A stretch of 46,039 bases of DNA from a virus. Within the stretch, counting starts at the first letter, position 1. Each line of letters starts with the position of its first letter. Both the position numbers and the translations under genes were made by a program. This document shows, piece after piece, positions 710-36,578 of this stretch. The notes below the pieces were generated by a model. The model had not been told where the DNA came from. It searched no databases and was given only the letters and a program-made list of their open reading frames with translations. The stretch is from the IMG/VR virus record IMGVR_UViG_3300030393_000005, positions 798-46,836 of that record. One strand, written 5' to 3'.

Positions 710-1864
710 ATGGCAACTCCAAACGAAGATACAATAATCGAATCACTGGTAAGACGCGAATCTTATTTAGCTAGGTTTGCGTCTTATCTAATCAATAAAC
801 ACATCGGCAAATCTATCAATGATTTTGCTAAACAACTACCTTCACTACTTGGCGAATTTGGCGAATACAGCGAATTAAATAAAGCAGACAGAAATAAGAT
901 AGACGCAATCATACGACAAGCGATTAATGAAGATATGGCTATCGGATTTTATTTAGTTACGCAAGATATGATAGAAATGATGCCGCTTGACTCTGAGCAC
1001 GTAAGCGATATTTACGACGACTTTCTAGGTCAGCCATTCAAAATCCCCGACGAAAAAATATTAGCAAGTTATGCGAACGCTGCAACAATGGTTTTAACAT
1101 CTGGCTCGTCTGCAAGATCTGGTGTGTGGTCGCAATTCGTCAAAAACAACATTGATTCGTCAAGTAAAGCAATAATTGGTCAAATTGACGCAGGGTACGG
1201 AGCCAATCTAACTAACGCTGAGATTGAGCGCAACATTCGCGGCACGTACAATCGCAAAACAAAAATGTATCAAGGCGGGATTTTACAGGGTAAAGTAAAG
1301 AACCAAGCCGCCTCACTTGTTCGCACTGGCGTTAGTCATTACTCAAATTCTGCGCGTGATAGAACTTACGCTGCAAATAAAGATATTATTGAAACACGTA
1401 TATTTTATGCGGTGATGGATAATCGAACATCAAAAACCTGTATGACCTGGAACTTGCAAGAATGGCCTATCGAGGATAAAAATTACCCACGCATCCCTCA
1501 GCATATCAATTGTCGCAGCGCTTACATTGTAAGATTAAAAGGAATTGACCCGCTCGAAGGAACAAAACCAGCGGTACAGGGCACGACAAACGATGTCGAT
1601 TATTCTACTCAGCGGCGAGGAAACAAAGATGAGCGCTACGGTGTGCAAAAAGTGCCAAGCGATATGGATAGCGATACATTTTTGAGATTGCAGCCTAGAA
1701 AATATGTCGAATCAAGTTTAGGTGTGACGGGCGCTAGATTGTTTTTGGATGGTAAATTGCCTATTAGTAAATTCACAGATTTAACAGGTCGACCGCTTTC
1801 AATTAAAGAATTAAAAGAAAGCGGCGTCGCTGATAAGGCGTTTAGATTGGCGGGGATTGATTAA
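710..1864 (+). CDS. MuF-like minor head protein (SPP1 gp7 family)
   Basis: A 384-residue protein. The N-terminal two thirds is helical. Residues of about 228-275 carry the MuF/gp7 core: RIFYAVMDNRTSKTCMTWN followed by PQHINCRSAYIV. This Asp-x-Arg-Thr-x-x-x-Cys plus H-x-x-C-R pattern defines phage Mu F-like minor head proteins. These bind the portal or enter the prohead in a few copies and may assist DNA release. In most related phages MuF follows the portal; here it precedes it and a minus-strand cassette sits between them. The ATG directly abuts a terminator T tract and has no Shine-Dalgarno. The last 23 bases overlap the end of the convergent methyltransferase gene. Confidence 0.85.
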   Translation: MATPNEDTIIESLVRRESYLARFASYLINKHIGKSINDFAKQLPSLLGEFGEYSELNKADRNKIDAIIRQAINEDMAIGFYLVTQDMIEMMPLDSEHVSDIYDDFLGQPFKIPDEKILASYANAATMVLTSGSSARSGVWSQFVKNNIDSSSKAIIGQIDAGYGANLTNAEIERNIRGTYNRKTKMYQGGILQGKVKNQAASLVRTGVSHYSNSARDRTYAANKDIIETRIFYAVMDNRTSKTCMTWNLQEWPIEDKNYPRIPQHINCRSAYIVRLKGIDPLEGTKPAVQGTTNDVDYSTQRRGNKDERYGVQKVPSDMDSDTFLRLQPRKYVESSLGVTGARLFLDGKLPISKFTDLTGRPLSIKELKESGVADKAFRLAGID

Positions 1865-2573
1865 TGCGCTCTTTCGCAATATTAAAATAGCCCTCGTCCA
1901 TTTCAATCCCTATAAAGTCGCGGTTTAAGTTTTTGGCCGCGACGCCTGTTGAGCCTGAGCCCATAGTAAAGTCCAGCACTGTGTCGCACCCGTTGGTGTA
2001 GGTTTTAATTAGGTATTCCATTAGTTCAACTGGTTTTTGGGTTGGGTGTACGCTGCCCCTTCTAATTTTATCAATCCTTATAAGTGTGGTTGGGTTTTTA
2101 TGTGTATAGGTCTTCTTTAGTGCTTTTAATCCTTGATTGTTTGTTGTCTCGCCCTTGGTCATTCCCCCGCCTTTTATAGGCTTGTCTCTTAATACCATTT
2201 GGGCGTTATATATAGACCTCTCCCCATTCAGTGTAAATACACATATATCCTCCGTCTGCTGCATAGGTCTAAATCGTGCGTAACTCATGCCGCTAGGTAT
2301 TTTTTTATCCCACTGCCAGCAATATTTAAAACCCTTCATGTTTGATGCAATCAAAGTTGTTGTAAACGGCTGTGAAGCTGTCATAACAATAGCACCATTG
2401 GGTTTAATAATTCTTTTTAACTGCTCCCACATAGGCTCAAGCGGGATAATTGAGTCCCACTTACAGGCCGTTGTACCATAAGGCGGGTCTGTCAATATCA
2501 AGTCAACACTGCCGTCAGGTATCTCTTTCATTCTTTCTAGGCAGTCGCCTAGCATTAGGTTAATTTTACTCAT
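1842..2573 (-). CDS. DNA adenine methyltransferase, beta-class (orphan)
   Basis: A 243-residue SAM-dependent methyltransferase. The catalytic motif DPPY is at residues 29-32, a variable target-recognition stretch follows, then HPTQKP at 176-181, and the SAM-binding motif VLDFTMGSGSTG at 199-210. Catalytic motif before SAM motif defines the beta group, and DPPY favours N6-adenine over N4-cytosine. No restriction endonuclease is adjacent, so it is probably a phage orphan methylase for protection against host restriction or for marking phage DNA. It is the last gene of a minus-strand cassette wedged between MuF and portal, and its 3' end overlaps MuF by 23 bases. The recognition sequence cannot be predicted. 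Confidence 0.9.
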   Translation of the reverse strand: MSKINLMLGDCLERMKEIPDGSVDLILTDPPYGTTACKWDSIIPLEPMWEQLKRIIKPNGAIVMTASQPFTTTLIASNMKGFKYCWQWDKKIPSGMSYARFRPMQQTEDICVFTLNGERSIYNAQMVLRDKPIKGGGMTKGETTNNQGLKALKKTYTHKNPTTLIRIDKIRRGSVHPTQKPVELMEYLIKTYTNGCDTVLDFTMGSGSTGVAAKNLNRDFIGIEMDEGYFNIAKERINQSPPI

Positions 2574-7170: not shown

Positions 7171-7710
7171 ATGGCTGAATATAATTTACCTAGCGCTAGC
7201 AATCTTGGTGTAGGGCAATACACATCTGGCGCTGGTGGCATAGCTGACTACAATGATGCAGCAACTTCTATCACGCCGATAGCAATGACGGCAGAAACGT
7301 GGACAACCGTGACCAACGACGGGCAGGGTGTTGCAACCAATGTTAAGTACCTACCGAATGGCGCGACTTCCCTAATGGACTTATCAACTGGTCAATTTGA
7401 CTTTTCTCAACTCGGACTTGGCGACAATTGCTTTATTCGGAATGATTTTTCTGTTACACCTCAAACTAATAACGCGCTTTTGGAGCTTAGATATCAATTA
7501 GGAACTGGAGCAGGGTCTTATACCCTGCAAACTATTGTTGGTCGGCTGGACAGTGGTAGCGGCCAGGCTTACAGGTTTAGCTTGTCTCCGCACATGATAT
7601 ACATGGGAGACCTAAATACTAAGGACAATCCGATAACATTGCAATTAAAGCTGTCAACAAACGGTACATTAACAAATGCTGGTTCAGCTATAGGAGTTAG
7701 CAAACTATGA
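7171..7710 (+). CDS. Beta-rich putative virion protein (179 aa)
   Basis: A 179-residue, Gly/Thr/Asn-rich, nearly Cys-free protein beginning MAEYNLPSASNLGVGQYTSG. Alternating strands and a pattern such as NNALLELRYQLGTGAG suggest a jelly-roll of the type found in phage decoration and receptor-contact proteins. The gene overlaps the following Ig/LamG gene by four bases (ATGA). Family not recognised. Confidence 0.6.
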   Translation: MAEYNLPSASNLGVGQYTSGAGGIADYNDAATSITPIAMTAETWTTVTNDGQGVATNVKYLPNGATSLMDLSTGQFDFSQLGLGDNCFIRNDFSVTPQTNNALLELRYQLGTGAGSYTLQTIVGRLDSGSGQAYRFSLSPHMIYMGDLNTKDNPITLQLKLSTNGTLTNAGSAIGVSKL

Positions 7711-9479: not shown

Positions 9480-9781
9480 TGCAAAAACTACACGAACAAA
9501 ACGCGCAAGAGATCGCTAACAATCAGATTTTGAAACTGGCTAACGAGGTTAAACTGCTAGAATCAAAGCTGGTACTTGCTAAAACGCTGGAAGAAGACGC
9601 CGAGATTAAATTGCAGCAAGCGGAAAAAGAAAGGGGAGTAGCTGTAAGTAATAGTGATTACGAACGGCTAAAAGCAGACACGCACGAAAAACGCGCAGAC
9701 TTTAACGGTAAGGTTGCGGGATGGCTTCTGGCTGTTAATGTTAGTTTGTGTGCGTCGATTTTAATTTATTTAGGGGGTTAA
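9479..9781 (+). CDS. Coiled-coil protein with C-terminal membrane anchor
   Basis: The chosen ATG at 9479 overlaps the previous stop; the frame is open further upstream but without a ribosome site. The 100-residue product has a long coiled coil (about residues 5-75, Glu/Lys/Leu-rich) and one C-terminal hydrophobic segment, WLLAVNVSLCASILIYLGG. Such tail-anchored coiled coils occur in phage superinfection-exclusion and holin-associated proteins. No family assigned. Confidence 0.6.
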   Translation: MQKLHEQNAQEIANNQILKLANEVKLLESKLVLAKTLEEDAEIKLQQAEKERGVAVSNSDYERLKADTHEKRADFNGKVAGWLLAVNVSLCASILIYLGG

Positions 9782-35539: not shown

Positions 35540-35745
35540 GTAAATTTATGATTGGATTAATTGCATGGGCTATCATCACTTTTGTTCCGGGATTGTTTGT
35601 TGCGGCTTGCGTTTCCTTTGTTGAGATGGATATATCCCTTATGAACCCTTACTACTGGGATCAGGGTGCTAGAGTTGCGTTCTGTGGGTATGCCGCAGTG
35701 ATGGCCGTTGCGATGATGGCCGCGCTCATGGGGTGCTATGACTGA
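35536..35745 (+). CDS. Two-pass membrane protein (69 aa)
   Basis: Starts with GTG, five bases after a near-perfect AGGAGGTG. Two hydrophobic segments lie at about residues 4-26 and 47-66. A polar loop YYWDQGARV lies between. It overlaps the next micro-ORF by one base. Such early small membrane proteins commonly alter entry or host membrane functions, but nothing specific is seen. Confidence 0.7.
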   Translation: MSKFMIGLIAWAIITFVPGLFVAACVSFVEMDISLMNPYYWDQGARVAFCGYAAVMAVAMMAALMGCYD

Positions 35746-35822
35746 TGAACATGTGGGAATTCCTAAACGAAAACACTGAAACTATAGTGATAGTAATTAT
35801 TATGGCGCTTATATTAATTTAA
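35745..35822 (+). CDS. Single-pass membrane micropeptide (25 aa)
   Basis: MNMWEFLNENTETIVIVIIM plus ALILI: an acidic N-terminus and a 14-residue hydrophobic end. Its ATG overlaps the previous stop (TGATG). It ends 17 bases before the met-box array. Length and composition match toxin-like or regulatory membrane peptides; translation is inferred from coupling. Confidence 0.5.
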   Translation: MNMWEFLNENTETIVIVIIMALILI

Positions 35823-35839
35823 CATTTAATTAACACTGT

Positions 35840-35879
35840 AGACGTCTAGAAGTCTAGCCATCTAAGCGTCTAGACGTCC
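35840..35879 (+). promoter_or_regulatory. MetJ-type operator: five tandem met boxes
   Basis: Five contiguous 8-bp units start at 35840, 35848, 35856, 35864 and 35872. Against the met-box consensus AGACGTCT they match 8, 7, 6, 6 and 7 of 8 bases (34 of 40). MetJ dimers bind adjacent met boxes cooperatively when loaded with S-adenosylmethionine; natural operators have two to five boxes with similar decay from consensus. The array stands between a micro-ORF and the gene at 35907. A -10-like TATATT at 35810-35815 with GTGATA 17 bp upstream could be the promoter it controls. Confidence 0.75.
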
Positions 35880-35906
35880 ATTTGGTTGACAACAAAAAGG
35901 TATATC

Positions 35907-36134
35907 ATGAATGATTTAGATAAAGAGCTATATTTGGCTCGTAATGCGTTTAACGAGGCTTCAAAGCGATTAAATAAAGCAATTGATGCCGTAGCCGCAG
36001 TAAGAGAAAAGGAGGCTTTAAAACGCGCTGTAGAAACTTCGAGGATTGTGGAAATAAAGACTATATCCGTCGGCGGTGTGGTACTTGCTGGCGGAAATTC
36101 GAGTATTGTCGAAATAACGGATAGAGTTTTTTAG
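35907..36134 (+). CDS. Small protein directly downstream of the met-box array
   Basis: The ATG at 35907 has AAAAAGG upstream and gives 75 residues. A longer frame from TTG 35886 is open but has no ribosome site. The first ~45 residues are an amphipathic charged helix (MNDLDKELYLARNAFNEASK at the start). The C-terminal ~30 are beta (VEIKTISVGGVVLAGGNSS). It shows no motif of a SAM lyase or methionine enzyme. It is the obvious target of any MetJ control at 35840-35879. Confidence 0.65.
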   Translation: MNDLDKELYLARNAFNEASKRLNKAIDAVAAVREKEALKRAVETSRIVEIKTISVGGVVLAGGNSSIVEITDRVF

Positions 36135-36530: not shown

Positions 36531-36543
36531 ATCAAATTAACCG

Positions 36544-36578
36544 TTGACATCCAAGCCCATACAATGCAATATGGGCTT
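36544..36578 (+). promoter_or_regulatory. Class I promoter in a 9-bp inverted repeat
   Basis: AAATTAACCGTTGACA with the hexamer at 36544-36549. AAGCCCATA (36553-36561) and TATGGGCTT (36570-36578) form a perfect stem with an 8-base loop. The best -10, CAATAT at 36567-36572, spans loop and right arm. Confidence 0.65.

Follow-up and report, generated by a model that had tools for sequence, protein, structure and literature searches.

Genomic context of the array

The window, that is the whole 46,039-nucleotide stretch of DNA analysed here, derives from a 46.8-kb viral contig. Its structural genes run rightward through the first 20 kb, and a leftward replication cluster, comprising a DUF3987 protein, a helicase and others, ends at ~33.6 kb. 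The cluster is followed by a rightward run of small ORFs annotated without function, and it is this run that holds a tandem array of five octamers (Table 1). The first-pass annotation placed the array in an early phage operon. Such an assignment is plausible from the small rightward ORFs lying opposite the leftward replication cluster; the gene layout fits, and the early timing is a prediction from that layout only.

The conserved short ORF preceding the array probably encodes a small membrane protein, and its 3' end is conserved in two related contigs described below (L059 and L053). The gene that follows the array, 35907–36134, is probably an early gene, and its product gave no family match and has no named relative. 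A TTGACA hexamer with a weak −10 element is located between the array and this gene. Alternatively, if the GTGATA/TATATT promoter at 35787–35815 is used, the array would be situated just downstream of the start site. Promoter-like sites near the array are no more numerous than in shuffled sequences. GTTGACA elements recur in the window, at 35886, 36155 and 36537–36565, as well as at about position 192 of the related contig L071, and two of them are preceded by ATCAAATTAAC(C/T); these elements precede successive small genes and resemble a phage promoter family.

A SAM-dependent DNA methyltransferase, also proposed in the first-pass annotation, is indeed encoded in the window (1842–2573, minus strand; phrog_67, 6e-75), and this SAM user is located 33 kb from the array. 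At the DNA level, the 1 kb around the array gave no match among named phages.

Table 1. Features of the array locus and met-box arrays scored in other phages. Positions refer to the window unless a record is named.
Feature	Position	Strand	Description
Conserved 25-codon ORF	35745–35822	+	MNMWEFLNENTETIVIVIIMALILI; 17 bp before the array
Alternative −10-like TATATT	35810–35815	+	With GTGATA at 35787; 17-bp spacer
Met box 1	35840–35847	.	AGACGTCT; 12.6 bits; perfect consensus, 8/8 matches
Met box 2	35848–35855	.	AGAAGTCT; 8.6 bits; 7/8 matches
Met box 3	35856–35863	.	AGCCATCT; 8.1 bits; 6/8 matches
Met box 4	35864–35871	.	AAGCGTCT; 6.0 bits; 6/8 matches; same box in L059
Met box 5	35872–35879	.	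AGACGTCC; 10.3 bits; 7/8 matches
TTGACA hexamer, possible −35	35886–35891	+	6 bp past the array; weak −10 AATGAT at 18 bp
Downstream gene, 75 aa	35907–36134	+	ATG 27 bases past the array
AhSzw-1 (L004)			16 boxes, 138.8 bits
Pontus (L005)			15 boxes by matrix, 17 by consensus matches
PH1 (L006)			Some 25 boxes in five runs
pVp-1 (L007)			Nine boxes
D254 (L009)			Eight boxes
XbC2, Xanthomonas phage	L015: 1994–2097		8+4 boxes
PR1 (L017)	L017: 3010–3081 (record 9620–9691)		Nine boxes, 88.3 bits
121Q (L018)			Seven boxes
PGT2 (L019)	35–112 from left genome end		Nine boxes
D164 (L061)			Fourteen plus twelve boxes
CBB (L064) and GAP32 (L065)			Seven plus four boxes
NNA-G4			Six boxes

Scoring of the array against MetJ sites

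MetJ is a classic model repressor. The proposal of five tandem met boxes, matching the consensus AGACGTCT at 8, 7, 6, 6 and 7 positions, was reproduced from the bases: the octamers are contiguous, in exact 8-bp register, and 34 of the 40 bases equal the consensus. At the base composition of the window, at least 34 matches of 40 would be expected 8e-11 times in a sequence of this length. The array was scored with the published matrix for gammaproteobacterial metboxes (PMC3228920, Table 3). The accompanying criterion for a site is at least two adjacent 8-bp boxes, each with at least one quarter of the consensus score (3.1) and with a total of at least 12.58 bits. Each of the five boxes exceeds 3.1 and the array totals 45.6 bits, so that both thresholds are passed, while the octamers flanking it in register on either side score only −5.9 to −13.7 bits. 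It is the sole place in the window above the published site threshold, and the best score in 1,500 dinucleotide-preserving shuffles of the window was 24.9 bits. Scored in the same way, the operators of metJ/metB and metF from E. coli K-12 reached 31.3 and 24.9 bits, respectively. By this measure, the array is a strong predicted MetJ site even against host operators. In host genomes, the typical distance from met boxes to the start codon is about 75 bp or less (PMC3228920), and the array, which is non-coding, falls within this distance of the ATG at 35907.

Searches by sequence identity were less informative. An exact 24-mer of the array had no match in IMG/VR, and a blastn comparison of the array with E. 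coli genomes returned no match, the native operators being too short and diverged for blastn.

Conservation of the array in related phages

Three related contigs allow the array to be followed beyond the window. The first, L059, is a 16-kb contig with 84% DNA identity around the array site. It carries six boxes at the same position, AGACGTCT AGACGTCT AGACCTAT AGCTGTCT AAGCGTCT AGACTTCC, i.e. a full extra 8-bp unit relative to the window with the register kept, although the third box, at 2.8 bits, is slightly below the 3.1 cut-off. The matching boxes differ from those of the window by four substitutions, all four at the central positions 4/5. These positions are change-tolerant in MetJ sites, so that the substitutions in L059 appear confined to where a MetJ site would accept them. 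The array is again located upstream of a homologue of gene 35907–36134 (84% identity), and its spacing from TTGACA is 6 bp, as in the window.

The second contig, L071 (51 kb), is related to the window at the protein level only (25–55% in three genes). Its array also consists of five boxes, AGCCATCT GGACGTTT AGATGTTT AGACGTCT AGACGTCT. TTGACA follows after 3 bp, and a gene sharing 37% identity with 35907–36134 begins 56 bp past the array. The gene order of L071 differs from that of the window, and still the array and the gene are found together.

Conversely, the array is absent from L053, a 48.6-kb contig that is colinear with the window and whose helicase is 95% identical. At about 7540–7590 this contig has instead an unrelated sequence containing the inverted repeat TTGACGCTTT...AAAAGCGTCAA, possibly another operator. 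Past the repeat, TTGACAACA and the downstream gene follow as in the window, the gene being frameshifted after about 28 codons unless this is an assembly error. The remainder of the contig contained no met-box array. The look for the array in related phages thus gave a divided answer: L059 and L071 retain it in register, with six and five boxes, whereas L053 has lost it or never had it. The absence from L053 implies that the array is dispensable in the clade, and on these comparisons it is best described as a constrained but dispensable element. A further search for relatives, with a three-protein alignment, yielded no additional phage.

Met-box arrays in unrelated phages

Used as a 49-bp query against 50,697 phage records, the array gave 24 weak matches, mostly non-coding. 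When those fetched were scored with the matrix, most proved to be arrays in exact 8-bp register, the matches in Pecta and K24PH164C1 being exceptions that did not rise above 22 bits. AhSzw-1, Pontus, pVp-1, D254, PH1 and XbC2 were obtained in this way, and PR1, 121Q, PGT2, CBB, GAP32, D164 and NNA-G4 were reached from them in turn. Matrix-scored arrays of 3–17 boxes occur in many phage lineages (Table 1), and BLAST searches with the AhSzw-1 and PGT2 arrays returned 73 and 61 phage records, respectively. The groups represented are T5-like phages, jumbo myoviruses, T7-like Autographiviridae, Zobellviridae and siphoviruses. One repeat, matched by a true pattern in a viral contig, was not counted: L032:7257–7544 is a nearly uniform 36-copy repeat of AGATGTC(C/T), met-box-like by the matrix and probably a simple satellite.

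Several controls bear on the specificity of these matches. The AhSzw-1 array reversed without complementing had no match in the phage records, and the PGT2 array found no array in 72,556 plasmids. Short met-box patterns were not in excess over reversed controls in IMG/VR (17 vs 15 and 5 vs 7). The matches of the reversed patterns were identical-unit satellites, coding repeats or isolated 16-mers, none of which extends into a heterogeneous non-coding array. Those of the true patterns include heterogeneous non-coding arrays of 9–10 boxes (PR1, PSTCR5, pVp-1 and two further contigs) as well as five- and six-box arrays beside homologues of gene 35907–36134. Consequently, the enrichment rests on array length, heterogeneity and coding context rather than on pattern counts. 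For comparison, the leftmost 2 kb of T7 and 14 kb of T5, the latter with its injection-stop region, were scored and gave no array above 13.4 bits.

The arrays occupy two kinds of position. In AhSzw-1, Pontus, PR1, 121Q and phiKT they are located in large non-coding regions, where the nearest start codon is several hundred bases away or the flanking genes converge. Some are located at genome ends: within the 10.5-kb terminal repeat (LTR) of PR1, within the 22-kb redundant repeat of CBB, across the R-LTR edge in NNA-G4, and beside the left terminal repeat in RIO-1. In the window clade, on the other hand, the arrays are short and precede a start codon by 27–56 bases, a spacing that is normal for host met operators. 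The long arrays far from start codons or at ends would suit a decoy or a terminal function, and the position in the window clade suits an operator. The PR1 array lies in its terminal repeat at approximately the coordinate of the T5 injection-stop annotation (AY543070, 9140–10149), where T5 itself has no array; MetJ sites might conceivably be linked to staged DNA entry.

Hosts and the likely reader of the array

MetJ is restricted to five gammaproteobacterial orders (PMC3228920; PMC4239095). Among the matches listed, the named hosts comprise Vibrio, Escherichia, Salmonella, Klebsiella, Erwinia, Pectobacterium, Serratia, Cronobacter, Providencia, Aeromonas and Pseudoalteromonas, all of MetJ-bearing orders. 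The sole exception is Xanthomonas, the host of phage XbC2, whose order lacks MetJ. This phage belongs to the genus Mimasvirus together with Pectobacterium phage CBB and Cronobacter phage GAP32, and its array may be inherited, these congeners infecting Enterobacterales. Among the records with a listed host, the apparent restriction of the arrays to phages of MetJ hosts is strong.

For the window phage itself, the search for a host through genome contigs returned only a 3.1-kb contig from a gammaproteobacterial MAG. The nearest named phages by one head protein (34–38% identity) infect Pseudoalteromonas and Alteromonas, and since the order of these relatives' hosts, Alteromonadales, is one with MetJ (PMC3228920; PMC4239095), the host of the window phage probably has metJ. 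No match above cut-off to PF01340, PF01402 or PF03869 (MetJ, RHH_1 and Arc) was obtained in the window phage or in the array phages checked, which points to a host protein as the likely reader. Two candidates for a phage-encoded protein were dismissed: a sub-threshold MetJ match in Quinn (E 0.014) has a stop inside, and an RHH_1 match in 121Q (E 0.0098) is located inside a 756-codon frame.

Possible functions of the array

On the matrix and register, the array in the window is very probably bound by host MetJ. Five SAM-loaded MetJ dimers would sit next to one another on the five 8-bp boxes and bind in a cooperative manner, as at host met promoters. Plentiful SAM would keep gene 35907–36134 down, and a drop in SAM or in free MetJ during infection would release it; a decoy effect may add to this as genome copies build up. 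The location of the array directly upstream of TTGACA and 27 bases before 35907 makes an operator the likeliest role, and on balance, if by no wide measure, control of this gene may be taken as its main function. It is noteworthy that this reading is weakened by the lack of a good −10 element for TTGACA and by a placement upstream of the −35, which is unusual for a repressor. Furthermore, most of the arrays in other phages are far from start codons, so that control of a particular gene is unlikely to be the common role of the class.

The long arrays among these, with 9–17 boxes in large non-coding regions of unrelated phages, fit titration better than promoter control. The window array could accordingly be a sponge, by which replicating phage genomes withdraw MetJ from host met promoters and raise methionine/SAM, the neighbouring gene being incidental. 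That phages can affect this axis is known from their SAM-degrading enzymes, which raise met expression via MetJ (PMC7877911). For the window clade, however, such a role remains rather doubtful, since the array is short and is found at operator distance from the same gene in three phages, despite the changed gene order in L071, and with five dimers per genome copy titration would be effective only late. A different reader, either a phage regulator or a protein of DNA injection, maturation or packaging, would make the likeness to met boxes convergent. T7 ends carry a different short-repeat array, and the met-box arrays at or near the ends or terminal repeats of PR1, CBB, NNA-G4, RIO-1 and PGT2, as well as their presence in XbC2 with a host order devoid of MetJ, are in line with this explanation. 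It is nonetheless improbable, considering that phages of unrelated families, with hosts in MetJ-bearing orders, repeatedly conform to the same MetJ matrix and the exact 8-bp period, that no RHH family reached cut-off in those array phages that were checked, and that the T7 and T5 left ends are without such arrays; the case of XbC2 may reflect inheritance, its congeners infecting Pectobacterium and Cronobacter. Chance or a neutral tandem repeat has a negligible probability. Identical-unit 8-bp satellites do exist in viral contigs, including among the reversed-pattern controls, but the units of the window array differ in the manner of met boxes and are not copies, the changes in relatives fall at tolerant positions, and the distant L071 keeps the site; in addition, neither the chance expectation of 8e-11 nor the shuffles, with at most 24.9 bits, approach the observed array.

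Taken together, the sequence at 35840–35879 is probably a genuine host-MetJ operator, likely controlling 35907–36134 and one of a widespread class of phage arrays, which elsewhere probably serve as decoys or terminal elements. The MetJ-type operator of the first-pass annotation is well supported by matrix, register, conservation and recurrence in phages whose named hosts almost all belong to MetJ-bearing orders, and it is challenged in part by the missing array in the colinear L053, two other relatives keeping it. More broadly, there is reasonable ground to suggest that phages of MetJ-bearing orders have repeatedly and independently gained arrays of MetJ sites, from five-box operators to terminal or leading arrays of 16–17 boxes, that would sense or titrate SAM-loaded MetJ.

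Relation to known systems and implications

The array resembles the gammaproteobacterial MetJ operators (PMC3228920; PMC4239095) in its contiguous 8-bp AGACGTCT-like units, its non-coding location near a start codon and the thresholds it passes. It differs in being carried by a phage, in front of a gene with no known methionine link, and in box number: the window has five and other phages as many as 17, as compared to four in each of the two E. coli operators scored. Phage SAM-degrading enzymes such as T3 SAMase and Svi3-3 strip MetJ of its corepressor and thereby raise met gene expression (PMC7877911). These are likewise phage devices acting on the host MetJ/SAM axis; however, they are enzymes that lower SAM, whereas the element proposed here is a stretch of DNA, acting in cis, to which the repressor would bind. 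Several of the long met-box arrays are found at termini or leading ends, places comparable to those of the short-repeat arrays in T7-like phages and of the injection-stop region in T5. Motif and period nevertheless differ, and neither the first 2 kb of T7 nor the first 14 kb of T5 contains a met-box array above 13.4 bits.

The first-pass annotation knew of no established phage gene under MetJ control. A search of the open-access literature, a scope that leaves subscription papers and most preprints outside, likewise returned no report of phage met boxes or of a MetJ-controlled phage gene. A MetJ operator as such is a known kind of element, whereas phage use of one, like the long arrays, appears to be new.

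If the arrays are bound by MetJ, many unrelated phages would monitor or disable host methionine/SAM control by DNA alone. A benefit is plausible, as restriction-modification and the methylation of phage DNA both draw their methyl groups from SAM, and the synthesis of virion proteins requires methionine. It is also open to direct test, since the genomes of array phages are sequenced and E. coli strains deleted for metJ are standard. The arrays further suggest a testable function for repeated sequences at phage termini, some of which have so far been annotated merely as part of a repeat region. Should this prove true, the class would constitute a general phage DNA decoy or sensor that couples infection to the methionine/SAM metabolism of the host.
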